A DNA stretch of 64,000 nucleotides from Streptomyces indicus (GTDB taxonomy: Bacteria; Actinomycetota; Actinomycetes; Streptomycetales; Streptomycetaceae), in contig NZ_FNFF01000001.1 of the NCBI RefSeq assembly GCF_900100315.1, forward strand, positions 1,116,001 to 1,180,000, in the 5' to 3' direction. Positions within the stretch are counted from its first letter, which is position 1. Each line of letters starts with the position of its first letter. This document shows positions 10,308 through 61,797 of the stretch, one piece after another. The notes under the pieces are model-generated. The model was not told where the DNA came from and did no database searches. It was given only the letters and a program-made list of their open reading frames with translations. The position numbers and the translations under genes were made by a program.

Positions 10308-11297
10308 TCAGCCGCGCGCGAGGGCGATGGACCCGGCCAGCCGGTCTCCCGCCTCGTAGATCATGTACGGCACCCCGCCGTCCGTGCCGAAGCAGGGTGC
10401 GGCCGCGCGGCCGCTCTCCGGGGCCGCGGACGAGGAGTCGTAGAAGACGCCCAGGTGGGTGCGGCGGGAGAAGTCGTTGCCGAGTTCGGTGATCAGGATG
10501 TTGCCGCCGCTGGCCTTGTCCGTGTGGTAGACGACGTACGTGCTGCCGCCGCGCGAGAGCAGGTGCGCACCGGACACGTTGACCGCGCCGACGTCGGCGT
10601 GGTCGATCAGCGGCTCGGCGGCGTACTGCCAGCTCAGCCCGTCCGGGGACCAACCCCAGCCGATGTCGCGGTGGTTGGTGGTGTCGTTGCGCATGAAGAC
10701 CATGACGTACTTGGCACCCCGGGCCGGCAGGTCGTGCCGGAAGACCCGGGCGTAGGAGGCCTCGGTGGTGCCCGCCGGGAGCATGGACGTGGTCAGGACG
10801 GTCCGGTCGTACGTGAAGTGGATGCCGTCCTTGGAGCGGGCGAGGCGCGTGGTGGTGTTCTCGCCGTGGAAGTACAGCCACAGCTCGCGGTGTTCGGCGT
10901 TCCACATCACGTGCGGCGAGGACACGTGGCTGACCTTGTAGTGCGGGGACCAGTCGTTCGACACGACCGGGTTGCCCGGGTACTCGGTGAACGGCCCTTC
11001 CAGGGAGTCCGCGTACGCGAGGCAGATGCCGCCGGGGGCGTCGTGCGGCGCGTAGTAGAGGTAGTAACGGCCCAACGGGGAGGTCAGCTTGTCGTAGACA
11101 CCCCGTACGCACGGGAAGATGATCTCGCCGGTGGGGTTGTAGGCGAGCTGCCCCGGGGTGAGCAGGGTGCGCACGTAGCGGTAGTCGGGGAAGCCGCCGG
11201 GAGCGGCGGCGGCCGCGGGGGCGCCGAGGGCGCCGAAGGTGAGGGCGGCTCCTCCGGTGGCGGCGGTCCGCAGGAAACGGCGGCGGTCGAGTGACAT
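10308..11297 (-). CDS. Tat-exported GH43-like beta-propeller protein
   Basis: The 329-residue product begins MSLDRRRFLRTA, a twin-arginine signal, followed by an Ala-rich h-region ending near residue 32. The mature part has repeated blade-like stretches (YYLYYAPHDAPGGICLAYAD, SSPHVMWNAEHRELWLYFHG, KYVMVFMRNDTTNHRDIGWG, STYVVYHTDKASGGNILITE) resembling five-bladed GH43/GH117-type propellers. The spacing of SPHVMW and the aromatic rims supports a glycan-active enzyme, but I cannot assign catalytic residues with confidence. AAGGAG precedes the ATG. It reads in the same direction as the LacI gene upstream, 159 bases away, and may be controlled by it. Confidence 0.72.
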   Translation of the reverse strand: MSLDRRRFLRTAATGGAALTFGALGAPAAAAAPGGFPDYRYVRTLLTPGQLAYNPTGEIIFPCVRGVYDKLTSPLGRYYLYYAPHDAPGGICLAYADSLEGPFTEYPGNPVVSNDWSPHYKVSHVSSPHVMWNAEHRELWLYFHGENTTTRLARSKDGIHFTYDRTVLTTSMLPAGTTEASYARVFRHDLPARGAKYVMVFMRNDTTNHRDIGWGWSPDGLSWQYAAEPLIDHADVGAVNVSGAHLLSRGGSTYVVYHTDKASGGNILITELGNDFSRRTHLGVFYDSSSAAPESGRAAAPCFGTDGGVPYMIYEAGDRLAGSIALARG

Positions 11298-11456
11298 GAG
11301 ATGCGGCTCCTTCGGGTGCGGGTACGGGTGCGTGCGGGTGGTGGGGGCATGCGGTGTGGGGCATGCGGGCAGGGGTGGTCGGCAGCCGGCGCGGTGCGGT
11401 GCAAACTGCCGTGCGGGGTCGTCGAGTTGTGGAGCGGCCGGGTCCGGCCTGGCGGG

Positions 11457-12548
11457 TTACGGAGCGGGCGGCGGCGGTCCGGCGGTGTGCCCGGAACGGA
11501 ACGCGCAGGGCACGAGCGGGGAGCAGTCGGCCCCGCCTTCGGTGAGGAGTGCGGTGAGGGTGCGGACGGCGGCGGCACCCAACTCGGCCTTGGGGACGTC
11601 GAAGCCGGTGGGTTCGGTGCGGCCGGCGAGGTCGGCGGGCGGTGCGCCGAGGAGGGCGAGCGAGAGGTCGGCCGGTGCGGTGAGCCCGGCCGCGTCGACG
11701 GCGGCGACCAGGGCCCGCCAGGCGGCGCAGGTGTCGGTCTCCTCTGCCACGAACGCCGTGACGCCCTCGGCGAGCCGGGCGCGTACCCAGGAGGCCGTGA
11801 TCTCGGCGGCGGGGTCGGCGACGCGCACGACGGGGCCGGGCCCGGCGTCCGAAGCCCGCGCCAACTCCCCCTCCCCCAGGGCCGCGCGGAATCCGCGCTC
11901 GCGGTCGACGGAGGCGAGCGCCTGGTCGCTCTCACAGACGAGCACCATGCGCCGGTGGCCGAGGGCGGCGAGCCGCCGTACGACCTCCGCCGTGGCCGCC
12001 GCGTAGTCGGCACCGACCCAGGCCAGGCCCTCGAGTTCGTCGCGGCGGCCGATGTGCACCGCCGGATAGCCCTGCTCGACCAGCCGGCGCAACGGGTCCG
12101 CCGGCACGTGCCGCCCCAGGAACAGGCAGCCGTCGGCCAGCCGCACCCGGTTCAGCTCGGCCGCCCCGCCGCCGCCCCGCCCCGGTGCGGCGCTCGACCC
12201 GGTGAACAGCACGAGGTCGTAGCCGCGCGCGACGGCCTCCTGCTCGACCCCGACCAGGATCGGGTAGTACGAGTGCGCCACATCCGTGGGGAAGGTGGCG
12301 GTGAAGCTGAACACCCCGAGCAGGTCGTTGCGGGCCGCCGCCAGGCGCCGGGCGGCCGGGTCGGGCGCGTACCCCAACTGCCGTGCGGCTTCGAGGACTC
12401 GGGCCCGGGTGTCCGGGTGCAGCGCGATGCCCTGCTTGTTGCCGCTCAGGACCAGCGACACCGTGGTCTGCGAGACCCCGGCGAGCCGGGCCACCTCCGC
12501 CTGCCGCGGACGCCCCCGCCGCGCCTTCGCCACCGGCTGCTCGGCCAT
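11457..12548 (-). CDS. LacI-family transcriptional regulator
   Basis: The 363-residue protein has a basic tail, the LacI helix-turn-helix (AEVARLAGVSQTTVSLVLSG, about residues 17-36), the hinge (ARVLEAARQLGYAPDPAARRLA) and a periplasmic-binding-protein-like sensor domain. The sensor is somewhat diverged: the usual VFVANDQMA-type segment reads AFVAEETDTCAAW, and the typical VGFDD is LALLGAP. The C-terminus is Pro-rich. A perfect 20-bp palindrome lies 12 bases upstream of the start codon, which is strong evidence for autoregulation. Likely targets are its own gene, the GH43-like gene behind it and the divergent SIS/aldolase operon. Confidence 0.93.
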   Translation of the reverse strand: MAEQPVAKARRGRPRQAEVARLAGVSQTTVSLVLSGNKQGIALHPDTRARVLEAARQLGYAPDPAARRLAAARNDLLGVFSFTATFPTDVAHSYYPILVGVEQEAVARGYDLVLFTGSSAAPGRGGGGAAELNRVRLADGCLFLGRHVPADPLRRLVEQGYPAVHIGRRDELEGLAWVGADYAAATAEVVRRLAALGHRRMVLVCESDQALASVDRERGFRAALGEGELARASDAGPGPVVRVADPAAEITASWVRARLAEGVTAFVAEETDTCAAWRALVAAVDAAGLTAPADLSLALLGAPPADLAGRTEPTGFDVPKAELGAAAVRTLTALLTEGGADCSPLVPCAFRSGHTAGPPPPAP

Positions 12549-52688: not shown

Positions 52689-54080
52689 TCAGCCGAGGTA
52701 CTGGCTGGTCCCCCGCGCCAGATAGGCGCCGTGTCCGGCCCGGCCCACGAACTCCCGCTTGTCGATGACGAGTTCACCGCGCGAAAGGACCGTCTCCACC
52801 TGCCCGGTCACGCGCTTGCCCTCATACGCCGAGTAGTCCACGTTCATGTGGTGCGTCTCGGCGGACATCACCTGCTCCGCGTGCGGGTCGTAGATCACCA
52901 CGTCCGCGTCCGCGCCCGGGGCGATCGTGCCCTTCTTGCCGTAGAGGCCGAACATCCGGGCCGGGGTGGCGCAGGCGATCTCGATCCAGCGGCGGCGGGT
53001 GATGCGGCCCTCGACGACCGCCTGGTGGAGGAGGTCCATGCGGTTCTCGACGCCCGGCATGCCGTTGGGGATCTTCGAGAAGTCGCCGCGGCCCAGCTCC
53101 TTCTGGCCCACGAAGCAGAACGGGCAGTGGTCGGTGGAGACCACCTGGAGGTCGTCGGTGCGCAGGCCCCGCCACAGGGCGGCCTGATGTTCCTTCGGGC
53201 GCAAGGGAGTTGAGCAGACGTACTTCGCGCCCTCGAAGTCCGGCTCGGCGAGGTTGTCCGTGGAGAGGAAGAGGTACTGCGGGCAGGTCTCGCCGAAGAC
53301 CGGGAGGCCCTCGTCCCGGGCGCGGGCCAGCTCCGCGACCGCCTGCTCGGCCGAGACGTGCACGACGTAGAGCGGGGCGCCGGTCACCTGGGCCAGTTTG
53401 ATGGCGCGGTGGGTCGCCTCGGCTTCGAGCAGGGCCTTGCGCACCTCCCCGTGGTAGCGGGGGTCCGTCTCGCCGCGCTGGAGGGCCTGTTCGACCAGGA
53501 CGTCGATCGCGATGCCGTTCTCCGCGTGCATCATGATCATGCCGCCGTTGGCCGCGGCGCGCTGCATCGCCCGCAGGATCTGTCCGTCGTCGCTGTAGAA
53601 GACGCCGGGGTAGGCCATGAACAGCTTGAAGCTGCTGACGCCCTCCTCGACCAGGAGGTCCATCTCCTTCAGGGACCGCTCGGTGACATCCGACATGATC
53701 ATGTGGAAGCCGTAGTCGATCGCGCACCGGCCGTCCGCCTTCGCGTGCCACGCGTCGAGGCCGGCGCGCAGCGACTGCCCCTTCGACTGCACGGCGAAGT
53801 CCACGATCGTGGTCGTACCGCCCCAGGCCGCCGCCTGCGTGCCCGTCTCGAACGTGTCCGAGGCGAAGGTGCCGCCGAACGGCAGCTCCATGTGCGTGTG
53901 GACGTCGACGCCGCCCGGGATCACGAACTTCTGGGCTGCGTCGATCACGCGGTCGGCCGTCCACCCGTGCGTGCCCGGCGTGCCGAGCGCGGCGATCCGG
54001 CCGCCCTCGATCAGCACGTCGGCGTGGATCTCGTCGGCAGCCGTGATGACGAGGCCACCAGTGATCAGCGTGCGGGTCAT
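52689..54080 (-). CDS. hydA: Dihydropyrimidinase (D-hydantoinase family)
   Basis: The 463-residue amidohydrolase has metal ligands in DVHTH (His61, His63), the bridging carbamylated Lys152 in FKLFMAYPG, the HAENG and HVSAE histidines, and STDHCPF with the catalytic Asp region. It hydrolyses dihydrouracil or dihydrothymine to N-carbamoyl-beta-amino acids, the second step of reductive pyrimidine breakdown. GGAGG lies 8 bases before ATG 54080. The gene is divergent from the nucleobase permease and separated from it by a gap with a strong operator. Beta-ureidopropionase, the next enzyme, is encoded at 60955-61797. Confidence 0.95.
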   Translation of the reverse strand: MTRTLITGGLVITAADEIHADVLIEGGRIAALGTPGTHGWTADRVIDAAQKFVIPGGVDVHTHMELPFGGTFASDTFETGTQAAAWGGTTTIVDFAVQSKGQSLRAGLDAWHAKADGRCAIDYGFHMIMSDVTERSLKEMDLLVEEGVSSFKLFMAYPGVFYSDDGQILRAMQRAAANGGMIMMHAENGIAIDVLVEQALQRGETDPRYHGEVRKALLEAEATHRAIKLAQVTGAPLYVVHVSAEQAVAELARARDEGLPVFGETCPQYLFLSTDNLAEPDFEGAKYVCSTPLRPKEHQAALWRGLRTDDLQVVSTDHCPFCFVGQKELGRGDFSKIPNGMPGVENRMDLLHQAVVEGRITRRRWIEIACATPARMFGLYGKKGTIAPGADADVVIYDPHAEQVMSAETHHMNVDYSAYEGKRVTGQVETVLSRGELVIDKREFVGRAGHGAYLARGTSQYLG

Positions 54081-54259
54081 CGTTCGCACCTCCTCAACCG
54101 CGGGTGGCACACCCCGGTTCGGTCGTCGGGTCGGGTGTCGGGGTTCTTTCCAGGTCAGGTCGCCGGTGAACCCGCCGGCCCGCAGGTCGGCAGGCGTCGA
54201 TCCCCCGACCCTCTCTCGCGCGCGGGCCGCTGCCAAGAGGGCCCGCCGCGCGGGACCCC

Positions 54260-54288
54260 TTGACGGCCCACCCACACCCTCGGATACT
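54260..54288 (+). promoter_or_regulatory. Predicted promoter of the permease/deaminase operon
   Basis: TTGACG (54260-54265) and GATACT (54283-54288) are 17 bp apart. The expected start point falls at the beginning of the twin palindromes at 54292-54321, so a bound regulator would block initiation. Confidence 0.55.
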
Positions 54289-54291
54289 GAC

Positions 54292-54321
54292 GGCCAAATC
54301 GATTTGGCCAAATCGATTTGG
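54292..54321. promoter_or_regulatory. Two contiguous CCAAATCGATTTGG palindromes
   Basis: The 14-bp perfect palindrome CCAAATCGATTTGG occurs at 54294-54307 and again at 54308-54321 with no gap. The first extends to an 18-bp palindrome with flanking GG/CC. A central CG flanked by AAAT/ATTT is LacI-like, and a LacI gene lies in the same cluster at 58378-59442. The rest of the 309-base gap shows only a GC-rich imperfect hairpin around 54210-54255. Confidence 0.85.
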
Positions 54322-54389
54322 CTCTCCGCTCCAGGGCCGGATCGAAGTGGACATCCGAGCGTGCCGAGACTCCCGAGAGGAGCCCGAAC

Positions 54390-56039
54390 GTGTCCCGACC
54401 ACGCCAGTCCCCGCCCGGTACGGAAGCCCGGTCCAGTGCCGGAGCCATGCCCAGCGCCGAGACCCACTCCAACACCGAAGCTCTGCCCAGCGCCGAGGCC
54501 AAGCCCGGTGCGGAGGCCCGGCCCGGTACCGAGGCCCAGCCCGACGCCGAAGTGCTCCCCGGCACGGAAACTCTCTCCGGTACGGAGCAGGTCGCAGTAC
54601 CCGCGCCCCGCGCCGCCGAAGTCCCCCCGCCCATGGACGCCGAGCCACCACCCGAGGCCGGGGCAGGGGCAGGGTCCGGGTCCGGAACCGAGGCCGGGGC
54701 GCAACGTCAACTCCCCCACCCCGTAGACGAATCCCGCCCCCGCGGGCGGATCCTGCTCTTCGGGATCCAGCACGTCCTCGTCATGGCGGCCACGCCCATC
54801 TCGGCCATCTTCCTGATGAGCGCCACGCTCCGGCTCGACCCCGAGCTGACGGTCGGGCTGCTCTCCGCGGCCTTCGTGCTCTCCGGCGTCGGCTCGCTCG
54901 TCCAGTCGCTCGGGCCCTGGAAGTTCGGGCCGCGGCTGCCGTTCGTGATGCTGCCGGGCGGTGCGCCGCTCATCCTCTTCCTCGCCATCGCCGAGCAGCA
55001 CGGCCTGCCCACGGCCACCGGCGCGGTGGTCCTGACCGCGGTGTTCTACTTCGTCGTGCTGCCGGTGTTCTCGCGGCTCCTGGCCTTCTTCCCCGCCCTG
55101 GTGATCGGCACGATGATCGTCATCGTGGGCGTGAACCTGGTGAAGGTCGGCGCGACCCTCGTCACCGGGCGGCCCGGCGAGCCCGGCTTCGCCGACCCGG
55201 GCAACCTCGGTCTCGGCATGGCGACGATCGGCTTCACCGTCGCGTTCTATCTGCTGTTCAGCGGCATCCTGCGGCAACTCGCGGTGATGCTCGGCCTGTT
55301 GGCGGGCACCGCGCTCGCCGCCGTGCTCGGCGGCATCGACTTCGGCGCCGCCGGGGCGGACGGTCTGCTGAGCGTGCCGCAGCCGATGCCGTTCGGTTCA
55401 CCGCAGTTCAACCTCGTGGCCGCGCTGCCGCTGATGCTCTACAGCCTGGCGTCCATGGCGGAGGCCACCGGCCAGACCGTGATCAACGCCGAGGCCGTGG
55501 GCAAGGAGATCGACCGGCGCACGGCCGTGCCCAAGACCATCCGCGGAGATGCGCTCACCTCGCTCGCCGGCGGCTTCTTCGGGCTGCCGCTCATGGTGAC
55601 CAGCGGCGAGAACATCGGCATCGTCCGGGTCACCGGCGTCCGCAGCCGGTACGTGACCGCCGCGGCCGGTGTGGTGCTCATCGCGATCGGCTTCCTCGCC
55701 CCCGTGACCCACGCGATCAGCGTGATCCCGTCGGCGGTGGTCGGCGGCACCGCGATGGTGGTGTTCGCGGTGATCACCGTGCTCGGGGTGCAGATGCTCG
55801 GCCGTTCCGACCTCGACCGGCACACCAGCACGTTCATCTGCGCGGTCGCGCTGGCCCTCGGTCTGCTGCCGATCCTCGTCCCGGGGGTGTACGGCGGCTT
55901 CCCGCCGAACCTCCGCATCCTCCTCGAAAGCGGAGTCGCGGTCGGCGCGTTCGTCGCCGCCGTCCTCAACGTCCTCTTCCACCACGTCAGGCCCGGCGTC
56001 GTCGCCCGCCTGACCCGCCCCCGTACCGAAAGCGACTGA
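54390..56039 (+). CDS. NCS2-family nucleobase permease with repetitive N-terminal tail
   Basis: The 549-residue protein has about 12-14 membrane segments from ILLFGIQHVLVMAATPISAI onward. SMAEATGQTVINAEAVGKEI and GGFFGLPLMVTSGENIGIVR are the conserved transport motifs of xanthine/uracil permeases. Residues 1-115 are a soluble Glu/Pro/Ala/Ser/Thr-rich tail built of about nine imperfect hexapeptides of the form xxPxxE. GTG 54390 is chosen because GAGAGGAG lies 7 bases upstream; earlier ATGs would overlap the operator. It should import uracil or a purine base. It overlaps the amidohydrolase start (TGATG). Confidence 0.9.
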   Translation: MSRPRQSPPGTEARSSAGAMPSAETHSNTEALPSAEAKPGAEARPGTEAQPDAEVLPGTETLSGTEQVAVPAPRAAEVPPPMDAEPPPEAGAGAGSGSGTEAGAQRQLPHPVDESRPRGRILLFGIQHVLVMAATPISAIFLMSATLRLDPELTVGLLSAAFVLSGVGSLVQSLGPWKFGPRLPFVMLPGGAPLILFLAIAEQHGLPTATGAVVLTAVFYFVVLPVFSRLLAFFPALVIGTMIVIVGVNLVKVGATLVTGRPGEPGFADPGNLGLGMATIGFTVAFYLLFSGILRQLAVMLGLLAGTALAAVLGGIDFGAAGADGLLSVPQPMPFGSPQFNLVAALPLMLYSLASMAEATGQTVINAEAVGKEIDRRTAVPKTIRGDALTSLAGGFFGLPLMVTSGENIGIVRVTGVRSRYVTAAAGVVLIAIGFLAPVTHAISVIPSAVVGGTAMVVFAVITVLGVQMLGRSDLDRHTSTFICAVALALGLLPILVPGVYGGFPPNLRILLESGVAVGAFVAAVLNVLFHHVRPGVVARLTRPRTESD

Positions 56040-57610
56040 TGAACCAGCGCACCGACGCTCCCCCGGCCGGCCCTGAGCCCGTGGACAACCTCGAACGCCC
56101 GGACCGCCCGGACCGCCCGGACGACCCGCGCCACCCCGGAACCCCCGCCGCTCCCGATCGGCTCCGTTCCCAACTCCTCGACACCACCGGCCCGTTGCTC
56201 CTCGCCCCCGACGCCGTCCTGCTGCCGGAGGGGCCGGCCGACGGGTACGGCGTGGTGGTGGACGGCGGTGTCTTCCGTGCCGTCGGTCCCCTCGCGGAGC
56301 TGCGGCGCACCCACCCCGGCCTCGCCCCGGTCCGCCTGGCCGGCCACCTCCTGATGCCGGGCTTCGTGGACGCCCACCACCACCTCACCCAGAGCTTCGG
56401 TTCCGCGCTGGCCTTCGGTGAGCCCTCGGAGATCTTCCGCCGCGTGTGGGTGCCCCTGGAGAACGCGCTCGACGAGGAATCGGCGTACGTGGCCGCCAAG
56501 TTGGCGGCGCTGGAAGCCCTGCGCGGCGGTTTCACCACGGTCGCCGACGCCGGCACGCGCGCGCCGGTCGACGTGGACGTGATCGCTTCGGCGGCCCGGG
56601 ACGCGGGCCTGCGGTGCGTGCTCGGGCTCGTCTGCAACGACGCCCCCGCGGAGGACCCGGCCCGCACATCCGCCGCTCCCGTGGCCGAGGCGACTCCCGG
56701 AGGCTCCACCGTCGCCGAGCGTGCCGAGAAGCACCTCGCCCGGTACGCCGGCGACCCGCTCGTCCACCCCTCCCTCGCGATCTCCATCCCCGAGGCGGCC
56801 ACCGAGCGGACTCTGCGGCACACCGCACGTCTGGCCGCCGAGGCCGGTGCCGTGGTGCAGATCCACGTGAACGAGCACCTCGCGGGCGTCGAGCGCTCCC
56901 TCGTACGCCACGGTCTGCGCCCGCTGGAACACCTGCACCGGATCGGCGCACTCGGCCCTCAACTCCTGGCCGCGCACGCCACGTTGCTCACGCCGCGCGA
57001 GCTGACCCTGCTCGCCGACACCGGGACCGCCGTCAGTTACAACCCGGTCGCCAGCGCCTGGAAGGGCAACGCGGTCGCGCCCGCCGTCGCCCTGGCCGAG
57101 CGCGGCATCCGCTTCGGGCTCGGCACCGACGGCACCCGCGGCGACGGGTTCCGGCTCGCCGACGCCGCGGAGTTCGCCCAGCGGCTCGCGTACGGACTCG
57201 CCACCGGCGACTCGTCCTGCGGCGCCGGCTGGACCTGGCTCGAACAGGCCACGCGGGGCGGCGCCGACGCCCTGGGACTCGGCGCCCGCACCGGCACGAT
57301 CGCCGCGGGGCGCGCCGCCGACTTCCTGCTCGTGGACACCGAGACCCCGGAACTCGCGCTCTCCTGGGACCTGCCCTGGGAGCTGGTGCGGCGCGGCAAC
57401 CGCGACCAGATCAGCGCGGTGTTCGTCGGCGGGCGGCTGCGCCTGTGGCAGGGCGCACCGGTCGGCTGGGACGGCCGCGCGTTGGTGCGCAGAGCCGGCG
57501 AACTGGCCCGCACCGTAAGGGAAAGGGCCGAGGTGAGACGCGCCCATCCCACCTCCACGACGGCCCGCGCGCGGGCCCTGACGGCACCGGGACGGAGTGC
57601 GGAGCGGTGA
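56039..57610 (+). CDS. Amidohydrolase of the 8-oxoguanine deaminase/chlorohydrolase group
   Basis: The 523-residue protein has a 45-residue Pro/Asp/Arg-rich head, then the metal-dependent amidohydrolase barrel. FVDAHHHLTQSFGSALAFGE carries the HxH pair (with an extra His), HVNEHLAG and AAHATLLTP supply the other ligands, and GTDGTRGD the Asp. The W-Q-type region LTQSFG is what I associate with 8-oxoguanine or isocytosine deaminases rather than urease-type hydrolases. It should deaminate a purine or pyrimidine ring imported by the permease. Its start overlaps the permease stop and its stop overlaps the exporter GTG. Confidence 0.82.
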   Translation: MNQRTDAPPAGPEPVDNLERPDRPDRPDDPRHPGTPAAPDRLRSQLLDTTGPLLLAPDAVLLPEGPADGYGVVVDGGVFRAVGPLAELRRTHPGLAPVRLAGHLLMPGFVDAHHHLTQSFGSALAFGEPSEIFRRVWVPLENALDEESAYVAAKLAALEALRGGFTTVADAGTRAPVDVDVIASAARDAGLRCVLGLVCNDAPAEDPARTSAAPVAEATPGGSTVAERAEKHLARYAGDPLVHPSLAISIPEAATERTLRHTARLAAEAGAVVQIHVNEHLAGVERSLVRHGLRPLEHLHRIGALGPQLLAAHATLLTPRELTLLADTGTAVSYNPVASAWKGNAVAPAVALAERGIRFGLGTDGTRGDGFRLADAAEFAQRLAYGLATGDSSCGAGWTWLEQATRGGADALGLGARTGTIAAGRAADFLLVDTETPELALSWDLPWELVRRGNRDQISAVFVGGRLRLWQGAPVGWDGRALVRRAGELARTVRERAEVRRAHPTSTTARARALTAPGRSAER

Positions 57611-58317
57611 CCGTCACAACCCTCGTGGTGCTCGCCCTCACGGTGGCCGCCGCCTCGTTCGTCCAGGGCAGCAGCGGGCTCGGCTTCGCGCTGATCGTGG
57701 CACCCGTGGCCGGGATCCTCGATCCCGGCCTGCTCCCGGTGTTCGTCCTCGCATCGATGATCCCGCTCAACGTGTACGTGGCATGGCGCGAGCGGGACGC
57801 GCTCGATCTGCGCGGGGCCGGCTGGATCACGGTGGCGCGCATCGCCGCCACTCCCGGCGGGCTGGCGCTGCTCTGGCTGATCCCCGACCGCAGTCTCGGG
57901 CTCTTCGTGGGCCTCGCGACGGTGCTCGCGGCGGTGGTGAGCCTGCTCGCTCCGGCGTTCGCGCCCGGGCGTTCCGCGTACGTGGCGGCGGGTGCGGTCA
58001 CCGGCCTGACGGAGACCGCGACGGGAGTGGGCGGCCCTCCGCTGGCCCTCGTCTACCAGCACCGGCCGCCCGCCGAACTGCGCGCGACGGTCGCCCTGTG
58101 CTTCCTCGTCGGTGAACTCGCGTCCCTGCTGCTGCTGTTCGCCACCGGTGAGGGCCATGCGGCCGACCTCGGCTGGGCGCTCGCGCTGCTGCCCGCGATC
58201 GCGGTGGGCGCGTGGCTGAGCCGCCTGGTGCACCACCGCTTCGACGCACGCAGGATGCGCCTGTTCGTGCTCGTCTTCGCGCTGGTCTCGGGGGCCGTGT
58301 TGATGCTGGGCCTGTAA
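57607..58317 (+). CDS. TauE/SafE-family (TSUP) membrane transporter
   Basis: The 236-residue membrane protein has seven to eight hydrophobic segments (LVVLALTVAAASFVQGSSGL, GLLPVFVLASMIPLNVYVAW) and the TSUP repeat around GAVTGLTETATGVGGPPLAL. TSUP proteins export or import sulfite, sulfoacetate and other small organic anions. In this operon it may export a product of nucleobase breakdown, for example a carboxylate such as malonate semialdehyde-derived acid; that is a guess. GTG 57607 overlaps the preceding stop (GTGA). Confidence 0.88.
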   Translation: MTVTTLVVLALTVAAASFVQGSSGLGFALIVAPVAGILDPGLLPVFVLASMIPLNVYVAWRERDALDLRGAGWITVARIAATPGGLALLWLIPDRSLGLFVGLATVLAAVVSLLAPAFAPGRSAYVAAGAVTGLTETATGVGGPPLALVYQHRPPAELRATVALCFLVGELASLLLLFATGEGHAADLGWALALLPAIAVGAWLSRLVHHRFDARRMRLFVLVFALVSGAVLMLGL

Positions 58318-58340
58318 CCGGCCGCGTGCGCGCAGGAGTT

Positions 58341-58375
58341 GGGAGGGCCGGTCCCGGTCGGGCGCCGGCCCTCCC
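58341..58375. terminator. Bidirectional terminator between TSUP and LacI genes
   Basis: An 11-bp perfect stem (GGGAGGGCCGG at 58341-58351 with its complement at 58365-58375) closes a 13-base loop between convergent genes. Confidence 0.8.
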
Positions 58376-58377
58376 CG

Positions 58378-59442
58378 TCAATTGCCGGGCTGCGAGGGCT
58401 TGTTCCGTACCGACGAAGCCCTGACGACCACCCGGGGCGCCGGCGCCGTGGCCGTTCGTGCGGCCTCCGCGTCGCCGCGCAGGCGGGCGAGCAGCAGTTC
58501 CACGGCATCCGCCGCCGCCCGGTCCAGGTGCAGGTCCACGGCGGTCAGCGGCGGTTCGCAGGTGCGGGCGCGCAGCCCGTCGTAGCGCGTGACGACCAGG
58601 ACGTCGTCCGGGACGGCGCGTCCGCTGTCCTTGATCGCCCGGACCGCGCCGACGGCGAACACGTCCACCAGGGCGCAGACCGCGTCGATGCCGGGGTGTT
58701 CGGCGAGCAGCTGCGCGCAGGCCGCGTAACCGGCCTCCTCGCCGCCCGCCTCGGGCGCCGTACGGACGAGCGGCGTCCACCCCTCTGCCGCGGCGGTGCG
58801 TTCGTAGGCCTCCCGCGCGTCCACCGACGAGTGCCGCGCGCCGGAGCCGATGATCAGCGCGGGCTGCCGCGCGCTCTGCTCCTTCAGGTGGGACAGGAGC
58901 AGGTCCGTGACGAGGGCGCCGCGCAGGTCCACGTAAGGCGCGTCCTCCTCCGGCGCCACGGGACGGCCGAGCGTGACGTACGGCAGGCCGCGCTCCTTGA
59001 GCCGGGCCGTGGCCGCGTCGTCCACGTCGGGCTCGACGACGATGGCGCCGTCGATGTCCACGGAGTACAGCGCCGATCCGGACGCCTCCACCGGGGGCAC
59101 GAGCACGAGGGCGTAGTCGTGGGCGAGGGCGCTCTCGGCGGCAGCGGCGGCCACCTCCATGTAGAAGCCGAGCCGCGACGGTCCGCCGGCCACGGAGAAG
59201 GGCATCGACGAGGCCAGCGCGATGGCCTTGGCCTGCCCCCGACGCAGGCGCTGCGCACGCAGGTTCGGCCGGTAGCCGAGGTCGGCGGCGACCTGCTTGA
59301 TGCGCTCCCTGGTACGGGGGTCCACCTTGCCGAGCCCGTTCAGCGCGTGCGAGACCGTCGTACGCGACACTCCGGCGACCCGGGCGACATCGGCGATCGT
59401 CGGCGGCCGCGTACCGGACGTACCGGAACCGGAAGGTGACAT
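58378..59442 (-). CDS. LacI-family regulator within the pyrimidine-catabolism cluster
   Basis: The 354-residue protein has the LacI helix-turn-helix (ADVARVAGVSRTTVSHALNG, about residues 18-37), the hinge VAADLGYRPNLRAQRLRRGQ and a diverged sensor domain (VCALVDVFAVGAVRAIKDSG, and VVTRYDGLRARTCEPPLTAV in place of VVGFDD). The divergence suggests a non-sugar ligand. MSPSGSG at 59442 is the start; GAGGAG lies about 11 bases upstream. It reads from the same strand as the aminotransferase and ureidopropionase genes, downstream of a hexanucleotide repeat. Its likely site is the LacI-like twin palindrome at 54292-54321. Confidence 0.92.
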   Translation of the reverse strand: MSPSGSGTSGTRPPTIADVARVAGVSRTTVSHALNGLGKVDPRTRERIKQVAADLGYRPNLRAQRLRRGQAKAIALASSMPFSVAGGPSRLGFYMEVAAAAAESALAHDYALVLVPPVEASGSALYSVDIDGAIVVEPDVDDAATARLKERGLPYVTLGRPVAPEEDAPYVDLRGALVTDLLLSHLKEQSARQPALIIGSGARHSSVDAREAYERTAAAEGWTPLVRTAPEAGGEEAGYAACAQLLAEHPGIDAVCALVDVFAVGAVRAIKDSGRAVPDDVLVVTRYDGLRARTCEPPLTAVDLHLDRAAADAVELLLARLRGDAEAARTATAPAPRVVVRASSVRNKPSQPGN

Positions 59443-59596
59443 CTGGGCGCGGACTCCTCGCGTGCGGACGGCGGACGACGACCCTATCCTCGCCCACCGG
59501 ACACAGGCGATCCCCATCGACCGGGCAGCCGCCGCCTCATCGGCCGGGCCCGGCGCCCGGAGCACCACGCGGCACTCCACGCCCCGGGCCCGCCCG

Positions 59597-59653
59597 CAGC
59601 TACAGCTACAGCTACAGCTACAGCTACAGCTACAGCTACAGCTACAGCTACAG
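59597..59653. repeat. (CAGCTA) hexanucleotide microsatellite, about 9.5 uninterrupted copies
   Basis: Perfect CAGCTA units run from 59597 to 59653, ending in CAGCC. The array starts 10 bases downstream of the aminotransferase stop and 155 bases upstream of the LacI start, in the transcript direction of both. At 50% GC it stands out sharply in this window. Confidence 0.97.
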
Positions 59654-59662
59654 CCACGCGTC

Positions 59663-60958
59663 TCACACCTCGCGCAGCGCCCGCTCCAGAATCGCCGCGC
59701 CCTCTTCCGCCTCCGCCACGGTCAGGCTGAGCGGGGGCGCGATGCGCAGGGCGCTCGTGCTGTGGCCGCCGCCCTTGCCGATCAGGAGGCCGCCGGCGCG
59801 TGCGGCCTCCAGGACCGCCGTGGCGCGCTGCGGCGACGGCTCGTCCGTGCCCGGTTCGCACAGCTCGATGCCGAGCATCAGACCCCGGCCGCGGACCTCC
59901 CGTACGGCGGGGACCGAGGCGCAGGCCGCGCGCAGGCGCTCCAGGAGGAGGCCGCCCACGCGGCGGGCGTTGCCCTGGAGGTCGTGTTCCAGGAGGTACG
60001 AGAGGTTCGCCAGGCCCGCCGCCATGGTGACCGGAGAACCGCCGAAGGTGGAGATGGAGTTGGCGTCCAGGCAGTTCATGACCTCGGCGCGGGCGACGAC
60101 CCCGCCGATCGACATGCCGTTGCCGATGCCCTTGGCGAAGGTCAGCATGTCCGGCGGCCCGGACTGCGCGTGCGCCTGCCAGCCCCAGAAGTGGTCGCCG
60201 GTGCGGCCCCAGCCGGTCTGCACCTCGTCCGAGATCCACAACACCCCGCGCGCGGCGAGGACTTCGCGGAAGGCGGCGTAGAGGCCGTCGGGAGGCGAGG
60301 TGAAGCCGCCGACGCCCTGGATCGGCTCGGCGATCAGGGCGGCAGGGGTACGGCCGTGGCCGAGGAGGTCCTCCAGGTCGGCCACGCACGCGGCGATGAA
60401 CTCGGCATCGCTCAGCGAGGCGTACGGGCCCCGGGTGCGGACGCCGCCGTGCACGTACAGCGTCTGGAGCGGGGACAGCGACGTGGGCGACCACGCGCGG
60501 TTGCCCGTGATGCCGACCGCCGAGAACGAGCGGCCGTGGTAGCTGTTGCGCATCGCGAGCAGGGTGTTCGAGCCGCGGTAGGCCGTCGCGAGCAGCAGCG
60601 CCGTGTCGTTGGCCTCGGTGCCCGAGCTGGTGAAGAACACGCGGGCGTCGGGGATGCCGGACAACGCGGCGATGCGCTCGGCGAGTTCGACCATCGGGCG
60701 GTCGAGGTAGAGCGTGGACGAATGGATGATCCGGCCCGCCTGCTCACTGATCGCCTTGGTCACCTCGGGCAGCGCATGCGCGGTCATCGTGGTGAGGATG
60801 CCGCCGAAGAAGTCCAGGTACTTGGTGCCGTCGGCGTCCCAGACGTGGCGGCCCTCGCCGTGCGTCAGCTCGATCGGGTCCTCGTAGTAGAGGGCGAGCC
60901 AGTCGGGCAGCACCTTGCGGTGCCGTTCGTACAGCTCCGCGGATGACGTCGACGTCAC
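59663..60958 (-). CDS. Class III PLP aminotransferase (beta-alanine/omega-amino acid type)
   Basis: The 431-residue protein is a class III aminotransferase: YLDFFGGILTTMTAHALPEV, VFFTSSGTEANDTALLLATA, VLWISDEVQTGWGRTG and the PLP Lys276 in MLTFAKGIGNGMSIGGVVA. In a reductive pyrimidine route it would move the amino group of beta-alanine or beta-aminoisobutyrate to pyruvate or 2-oxoglutarate, giving a semialdehyde. GTG 60958 overlaps the beta-ureidopropionase stop by 4 bases (GTGA), linking it with the enzyme that makes its substrate. The length and motifs fit AGXT2-like proteins, so other omega-amino acids are possible. Confidence 0.92.
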   Translation of the reverse strand: MTSTSSAELYERHRKVLPDWLALYYEDPIELTHGEGRHVWDADGTKYLDFFGGILTTMTAHALPEVTKAISEQAGRIIHSSTLYLDRPMVELAERIAALSGIPDARVFFTSSGTEANDTALLLATAYRGSNTLLAMRNSYHGRSFSAVGITGNRAWSPTSLSPLQTLYVHGGVRTRGPYASLSDAEFIAACVADLEDLLGHGRTPAALIAEPIQGVGGFTSPPDGLYAAFREVLAARGVLWISDEVQTGWGRTGDHFWGWQAHAQSGPPDMLTFAKGIGNGMSIGGVVARAEVMNCLDANSISTFGGSPVTMAAGLANLSYLLEHDLQGNARRVGGLLLERLRAACASVPAVREVRGRGLMLGIELCEPGTDEPSPQRATAVLEAARAGGLLIGKGGGHSTSALRIAPPLSLTVAEAEEGAAILERALREV

Positions 60959-61797
60959 GGCTGCACCAGCCCTTCGTACGCGTCGGGACGGCGGTCGCGG
61001 TAGAACGCCCACTGGTTGCGCACTTCCTCGATCAGGCCGAAGTCCAGGTCCCTGACCACCAGTTCCTCGGTCTTGTCGCTCGCGGTCTCGCCGACGAACT
61101 GGCCGCGCGGGTCCACGAAGTACGAGGTCCCGTAGAAGTCGTTGTCGCCGTACTCCTCCTGGCCGACCCGGTTGATGGCCGCGATGAAGTACTCGTTGGC
61201 GACCGCGGCGGCGGGCTGCTCCAGCTGCCAGAGGTACGCGGACAGACCGCGCGAGGTGGCGGAGGGGTTGTAGACCAACTGGGCACCGTTCAGGCCGAGT
61301 TGCCGCCAGCCCTCGGGGAAGTGCCGGTCGTAGCAGATGTACACGCCGACCTTGCCGACCGCGGTGTCGAACACCGGCCAGCCCAGGTTCCCGGGCTTGA
61401 AGTAGTACTTCTCCCAGAAGCCCTTGACCTGCGGGATGTGGTGCTTGCGGTACTTGCCGAGATACGTGCCGTCCGCGTCGATCACGGCCGCGGTGTTGTA
61501 GTAGAAGCCGGCCTGCTCGACTTCGAAGACCGGGACGACGATCACCATGCCGGTCTCGCGGGCGAGTGCCTGCATCCGGACCACCGTGGGCCCGTCCGGC
61601 ACCGGCTCGGCCCAGCGGTAGTGCTCCGGCTCCTGCACCTGGCAGAAGTACGGCGCGTTGAACACCTCCTGGAAGCCGATCACCTGCGCACCCTGGCGCG
61701 CGGCCTCCCGGGCGTGCTCCTCATGCTTGGCGATCATGGATTCGGTGTCGCCTGTCCAGGTCGCCTGGACCAGTGCGGCGCGTACGACGGTGGCCAT
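60955..61797 (-). CDS. Beta-ureidopropionase (N-carbamoyl-beta-alanine amidohydrolase), nitrilase superfamily
   Basis: The 280-residue enzyme has the nitrilase triad: Glu44 (GFQEVFN), Lys118 (KYRKHHIP) and Cys155 (VYICYDRHFPEGWRQ). HFPEGWR and the FKPGNLGWPVFDT segment match beta-ureidopropionases. It releases ammonia and CO2 from N-carbamoyl-beta-alanine, the product of the dihydropyrimidinase encoded at 52689-54080. AAGGAG lies 8 bases before ATG 61797. It is first in the minus-strand arm, followed by the aminotransferase. The 205 bases upstream hold no supported gene. Confidence 0.94.
   Translation of the reverse strand: MATVVRAALVQATWTGDTESMIAKHEEHAREAARQGAQVIGFQEVFNAPYFCQVQEPEHYRWAEPVPDGPTVVRMQALARETGMVIVVPVFEVEQAGFYYNTAAVIDADGTYLGKYRKHHIPQVKGFWEKYYFKPGNLGWPVFDTAVGKVGVYICYDRHFPEGWRQLGLNGAQLVYNPSATSRGLSAYLWQLEQPAAAVANEYFIAAINRVGQEEYGDNDFYGTSYFVDPRGQFVGETASDKTEELVVRDLDFGLIEEVRNQWAFYRDRRPDAYEGLVQP

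Follow-up and report, generated by a model that had tools for sequence, protein, structure and literature searches.

The closest solved structure to the regulator studied here is that of a CelR/CebR-type actinobacterial repressor (5ysz; E 2.8e-34, and 4.2e-23 by Foldseek, with 29% identity in the Foldseek alignment), captured in complex with cellobiose. Repressors of this type recognize short CG-centred palindromes, and the targets of CelR are cellulase genes, whereas the operon described below contains no sugar genes. The regulator also shares the LacI fold with E. coli PurR, whose residues R190, T192, and D275 are aligned to Arg, Ser, and Asp in our protein and whose F221 is replaced by Gly. 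To our knowledge, the R190, T192, and D275 positions are not purine-specific across the LacI family. A ligand assignment from the pocket residues was set aside, the partial similarity to PurR being uninformative.

PurR is described as a global regulator, and HpxR, AdeR, and UriR as local LacI-family regulators of nucleoside utilization (PMC4052901). HpxR (RegPrecise) could belong to the same orthologous group as the regulator reported here; the main text of that paper names it once, without a motif or gene list. The UriR model gives 72.7 bits against our protein, with a cut-off of 550. LacI-family sites that overlap at a distance of about 13 bp are noted upstream of 110 operons and called structurally unexplained (PMC4052901, section 9), and the E. 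coli GntR sites ahead of gntKU have this spacing (PMC4052901). In the present locus, which belongs to an unrelated regulon, the spacing is instead 14 bp and two 14-mers abut exactly; the puzzle lies in this 14-bp distance between paired sites. We found no published description of the operator or of its module in the literature covered, with supplements and most subscription papers outside, and an earlier report is possible; the passages of PMC3596328 and PMC7142369 that came up are not about the module.

Since the palindrome is found together with this repressor gene in many Streptomyces and some unrelated bacteria, it is very probably the landing site of the repressor. The palindrome thereby becomes a testable regulon, comprising one repressor, one operator, and three coupled genes, from Streptomyces to Sinorhizobium meliloti.

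Two abutting palindromes at the permease promoter

The window (the whole stretch of 64,000 nucleotides from S. indicus that was analysed) carries at 54292–54321 a block made up of GG followed by two exact copies of CCAAATCGATTTGG. Copy 1, the putative primary operator, occupies 54294–54307, and copy 2, the putative auxiliary one, occupies 54308–54321; the two palindromes abut, with a centre-to-centre distance of 14 bp and no strand assigned. A first-pass annotation had described two contiguous perfect palindromes here, in agreement with these exact copies. The block also contains two 18-bp perfect palindromes, GGCCAAATCGATTTGGCC (54292–54309) and TCGATTTGGCCAAATCGA (54299–54316), and the perfect symmetry of copy 2 reaches 16 bp only.

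A scan of the window with up to three mismatches recovered only these two copies, where 0.59 would be expected; this loose test alone is not striking, because 15 of 100 shuffles also gave two. Likewise, the near-matches in the genome look like chance, with five sites at up to two mismatches vs three for the reversed control. Exact copies, in contrast to such near-matches, occur nowhere else in the 8.2-Mb genome, where a scan suggested by the annotation found two, both in the 54294–54321 block. The central CG and the even symmetry are features of CCAAATCGATTTGG, and its attribution to LacI rests on co-occurrence. Judged by its conservation, the site is functional.

The consensus scan reports a single promoter in 54081–54400, on the forward strand, with a –35 box TTGACG (54260–54265) and a –10 box GATACT (54283–54288) separated by 17 bp and matching at 9 of 12 positions, a quality for which 0 are expected in 50 shuffles. 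Copy 1 begins after a gap of 5 bp from the end of the –10 box (54288), so transcription should, by the usual distance, start within copy 1, at about 54295. The palindromes had been said to sit where transcription should begin, and their place just downstream of a consensus-like –10 box fits that description. On the 3′ side of the operator, a leader stretch at 54322–54350 (about CCGTCCAGGGCCGGATCG) shows conservation in many of the 70 loci aligned below and could fold into a small hairpin.

A probable coupled operon and its proposed convergent regulator

The promoter faces a gene for an NCS2 family (xanthine/uracil type) permease (54390–56039, forward strand; PF00860, E 1.2e-61), whose start is probably the GTG at 54390. 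The permease matches the pbuX (xanthine permease) model at E 7.4e-97, yet stays below the model's cut-off. An N-terminal extension of more than 110 residues, with degenerate short repeats, precedes the NCS2 domain (54390–54750). The start of the next gene, for an amidohydrolase of the deaminase/TRZ-ATZ type (56039–57610, forward strand; PF01979, E 7.2e-44), overlaps the permease stop, and the start of a TauE/SafE family exporter gene (57607–58317, forward strand; PF01925, E 1.9e-25) overlaps the amidohydrolase stop. This end-to-start overlap suggests that the three genes (54390–58317) form one coupled operon.

The solved relatives of the amidohydrolase include MTA/SAH deaminase and 8-oxoguanine deaminase, and the enzyme resembles triazine hydrolases too; its NCBIfam matches, among those listed, all fall below cut-off. 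Its HxH, HVNE, H, and D residues are invariant across 25 rows of the alignment, and its structure model is poor (mean pLDDT 57.6). By family membership, the module most likely imports an amino-substituted nucleobase-like compound and deaminates it hydrolytically. Export of a product by TauE is a guess, and the ligand of the regulator can, from the permease and enzyme families, be called at most 'a nucleobase-like compound'.

Convergent with the operon lies the gene of the LacI-family regulator, the proposed repressor, on the reverse strand at 58378–59442, as the annotation had it. The protein combines an N-terminal helix-turn-helix (PF00356, E 2.2e-16) with a periplasmic-binding-protein-like sensor (PF13377, Peripla_BP_3), which had been called diverged and which we find to be an ordinary match to that family (E 8.7e-23). 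Its model has a mean pLDDT of 81.2, and a Foldseek search against the PDB matches full-length CelR, CcpA, PurR, and LacI. Within the recognition helix, residues TTVSH are invariant in 82 rows, the residue just before them (position 15) being Arg in 79 and Pro in three, and all 82 rows carry a leucine at the PurR L54 position in the hinge helix. In the LacI family, this hinge leucine intercalates into DNA.

No operator was found before lacI in the window at up to three mismatches, which we count against the operator reading, and over three-fourths of local LacI regulators are called autoregulated (PMC4052901). In all 12 proteobacterial loci inspected (see below), lacI and the operon point away from each other across a shared gap, in which both sites lie. 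The interval from the aminotransferase stop to the LacI gene contains a run of CAGCTA hexamers (59597–59656).

The palindrome accompanies the regulator gene

Among 392 Streptomyces genomes, the exact palindrome occurs in 43 (reversed control, 0/392) and the regulator, at a threshold of E 1e-60, in 45; all 43 palindrome genomes fall among the 45 (Fisher p 2e-55, with shared ancestry ignored). Conversely, none of the 347 Streptomyces genomes without the regulator at that threshold contains the palindrome. The first-pass annotation had read the palindromes as the target of this LacI protein in control of pyrimidine catabolism; from co-occurrence, the cognate regulator is strongly supported, and the pathway assignment (discussed below) is not. 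The two LacI genomes without the palindrome, G332 and G119, are counted against the association; in G332, the small contig with the permease begins at or inside that gene, so that the upstream DNA is missing, and in G119 LacI is broken up and the permease and amidohydrolase survive as fragments.

A one-protein search gave 79 named LacI loci, close relatives with at least 66% best-segment identity, which share many genomes with the set of 392 and are not independent of it. The exact palindrome is present in 71 of the 79; the eight exceptions are six loci that stop short of the site, L127 with a single mismatch, and the decayed L139. LacI, TauE, amidohydrolase, and permease occur together in 74 of the 79 loci (L139 counted with fragments), the remaining five comprising three that end at a contig border, one that is rearranged (L078), and one that is partial (L096). 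In the partial locus (11053–11620), from Streptomyces achromogenes, LacI, TauE, and the operator are still present, and the fetched stretch gives no permease or amidohydrolase match. The module of Streptomyces altiplanensis (L139, L148; probably the same assembly as G119) is decayed, with LacI in pieces, fragments of the permease and amidohydrolase, and the operator gone.

We also considered the operator as a feature common to related amidohydrolases and rejected this. At E 1e-100, a related amidohydrolase is found in 59 of 392 genomes, 15 of them without LacI; 12 of these 15 LacI-less loci were fetched, and their best site has four to five mismatches. None of the 12 loci contains the permease, TauE, LacI, or the operator. 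Near these LacI-less enzymes (about 61–68%), eight of the 12 loci (L170–L181) show a distant match to a class-III aminotransferase.

Copy 1 is constant and copy 2 comes and goes

For alignment, the window and the 79 loci were anchored on one of five –10 variants together with a site of at most one mismatch, which retained 70 of 80 rows; an alternative selection requiring TTGAC retained 68 of 80. Six of the ten rows outside the anchored set (L069, L076, L092, L111, L121, and L124) end before the site by locus length, three others (L071, L086, and L126) contain the exact palindrome, and L139 has lost it. In all 70 anchored loci, window included, TTGAC begins 33–36 bp before the operator; its spacing to the –10 box is 16–19 bp (17 in 43/70). 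Mean pairwise identity is 0.91 for the –10 box, selected by the five variants, and 0.992 for the operator, both raised because the anchoring demanded these features (the unanchored counterpart for the operator is the 71 exact palindromes in 79 loci). Outside the promoter boxes, in the spacer and further upstream, mean pairwise identity is 0.33–0.44 in the same 70 loci.

Within the limit of one mismatch set by the anchoring, the copy 1 position is exact in 66 of 70 loci and has one mismatch in four. Copy 2 is exact in 37, has one to three mismatches in 11, and is absent (more than three mismatches) from 22, an absence that we count against the operator reading. On a quick LacI tree of the 70 loci, the presence and absence of copy 2 require at least nine changes. 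Copy 1 is thus the stable member of the pair, and copy 2 is present in some loci and missing from others. In L130 (14656–14714; Streptacidiphilus pinicola), two sites lie 45 bp apart, as in Proteobacteria and unlike the 14-bp tandem.

The module outside Streptomyces and on plasmids

A class-wide sample gave LacI in eight of 394 genomes, all Streptomyces, and the named loci include some outside the genus, from two Actinophytocola bins, Streptacidiphilus, and Nocardiopsis. In a protein search of plasmid records (E 1e-60), 20 records were found, four of them from Streptomyces and the other 16, at 49–61% identity, from Caballeronia (1), Paracoccus (7), Ensifer (7), and Sinorhizobium (1). A further search, started from the Caballeronia protein (E 1e-40), gave 94 records, 62 of them Sinorhizobium.

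We inspected 12 proteobacterial loci, with a LacI 47–60% identical to ours and with close relatives included (e.g., two S. meliloti pSymB). Each of them has LacI adjacent to the same set of permease, amidohydrolase, and TauE genes and in divergent orientation to it, and in each the gap between permease and LacI holds exactly two CAAAWCGWTTTG sites, 43–47 bp apart. All 24 CAAAWCGWTTTG sites in the 224 kb of sequence sit in this gap, against 0.01 expected by composition. In Caballeronia sp. NK8 (LacI 60%), one exact and one single-mismatch copy of the Streptomyces 14-mer precede the same operon. Each of the 11 alphaproteobacterial loci contributes two CAAAWCGWTTTG sites, and the outer pair is G..C in 14 of these 22. 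This outer pair, found in Proteobacteria with Val, Ala, or Pro, and not Arg, at position 15 of the recognition helix, gave a lead for a co-change of helix and outer base pair, which was dropped; the Streptomyces rows with Pro (L099, L110, and L132) retain the usual palindrome, as does the Caballeronia LacI with Thr.

Four Streptomyces plasmids carry the module, three typed as non-mobilizable and one as mobilizable. On three Streptomyces linear plasmids (L168, L190, L196, and L197), LacI lies about 6–16 kb from the operon with the operator intact, which we count against the association. Because the distribution is patchy, transfer of the module between genomes appears likely.

Proposed repression and alternative readings

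The site stands at the promoter, co-occurs near-perfectly with the LacI gene, and has a core conserved across phyla. With high confidence, we read the palindromes as the operator of the LacI protein at 58378–59442, which would repress the coupled permease operon until relieved by a ligand, the whole forming a self-contained module. Beyond these observations, we infer the binding itself, repression instead of activation, and induction. LacI would sit on copy 1, covering the predicted start, and would keep polymerase from initiating at the permease promoter or from escaping it, so that the permease–amidohydrolase–TauE operon would stay silent; a small molecule entering via the permease, or its product, would then free LacI from the operator. 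The best reading is thus of a four-gene module with a patchy distribution, whose LacI would repress uptake and hydrolysis of a nucleobase-like compound. As such, the system would be a well-supported addition to the local regulators of the LacI family, and the regulator could become a sensor for its ligand once that is known.

The neighbourhood in S. indicus suggests another reading: the operator of the window has the permease on one side and a divergent dihydropyrimidinase on the other, and three loci (L085, L091, and L097) have parts of a pyrimidine cluster in their fetched flanks. On this basis, LacI might govern reductive pyrimidine catabolism (with uracil, dihydrouracil, and N-carbamoyl-beta-alanine) and the neighbouring dihydropyrimidinase, as the annotation had proposed; from its distribution and synteny, we reject this as the regulated pathway and regard it as very improbable. 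Dihydropyrimidinase (E 1e-150) is present in 374 of the 392 Streptomyces genomes and LacI in 45. In flanks of up to 10 kb, nitrilase and aminotransferase were found at three of the 79 LacI loci and dihydropyrimidinase at one, and all three genes are missing from the fetched flanks of the other 76; two of the three positive stretches end within the cluster, and several other flanks are cut by contig ends. Four genomes with LacI (G046, G289, G304, and G383) have the three pyrimidine-type genes grouped at a site away from the LacI module, and two of 13 cluster loci examined (L152 and L160) have a PucR gene inside a gap of the cluster. Moreover, the genome gives no obvious sign of the opening step of the reductive pathway, because matches to PF01180, the family that dihydropyrimidine dehydrogenase would presumably match, are confined to one region of the genome, read as carB-pyrD-pyrF; a dissimilar reductase is possible.

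Two further readings keep the operon and change what acts at its promoter. A few LacI-family proteins activate some promoters, and LacI could be an activator here; a site over the start and downstream of the –10 box, as found, usually blocks polymerase, and activation is the least probable of the readings considered. That another regulator binds, or that the palindrome acts as a 5′ RNA hairpin, with LacI tied to it by mere linkage among co-travelling genes, is only slightly less improbable than control of the pyrimidine pathway. Co-occurrence by itself does not separate linked genes, a transcript starting inside the palindrome could fold, and a further stretch of the leader is conserved downstream. 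However, LacI is the sole regulator among the four co-conserved genes, and the core of the site persists in Proteobacteria despite a different gene orientation and site spacing. The second copies that carry mismatches divide on the hairpin, five of 11 retaining all seven pairs if G-U is counted and six breaking one to three. Even palindromes centred on CG are a signature of the LacI family, as described for 1173 transcription factors (PMC4052901).

A bolder extension of repression by LacI, which we hold to be doubtful, is that a cross-phylum, plasmid-borne module would place two LacI dimers on abutting operators, 14 bp apart and about 120 degrees round the helix, in a binding mode unexplained by published LacI-DNA structures; base uptake and deamination would thereby be switched, and the product exported by TauE. 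For the unexplained 13–14-bp spacing in the LacI family, the locus offers a clean case, with single, double, and degraded double-site promoters available in nature.

A module within a dihydropyrimidinase cluster

In the S. indicus genome, a nitrilase–aminotransferase–dihydropyrimidinase cluster (52689–61797) is interrupted by the LacI module, which seems to have been inserted into it. Insertion is the simplest account, because the module stands exactly between aminotransferase and dihydropyrimidinase. A misleading neighbourhood is thereby corrected, the adjacency of dihydropyrimidinase to the operator looking like a result of insertion. Thirteen dihydropyrimidinase loci from other genomes, chosen non-randomly among the best matches, were compared; in 12 of them, aminotransferase and dihydropyrimidinase run in the same direction, with less than 250 bp between them in six and more in six. 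The LacI module lies between the two genes in none of these 12 loci, four of which are those of G046, G289, G304, and G383, whose LacI module lies elsewhere. The junction itself is variable in relatives, L149 having 2.6 kb of other DNA at this place and L154–L156, in our reading of the fetched loci, dihydropyrimidinase-like sequence.
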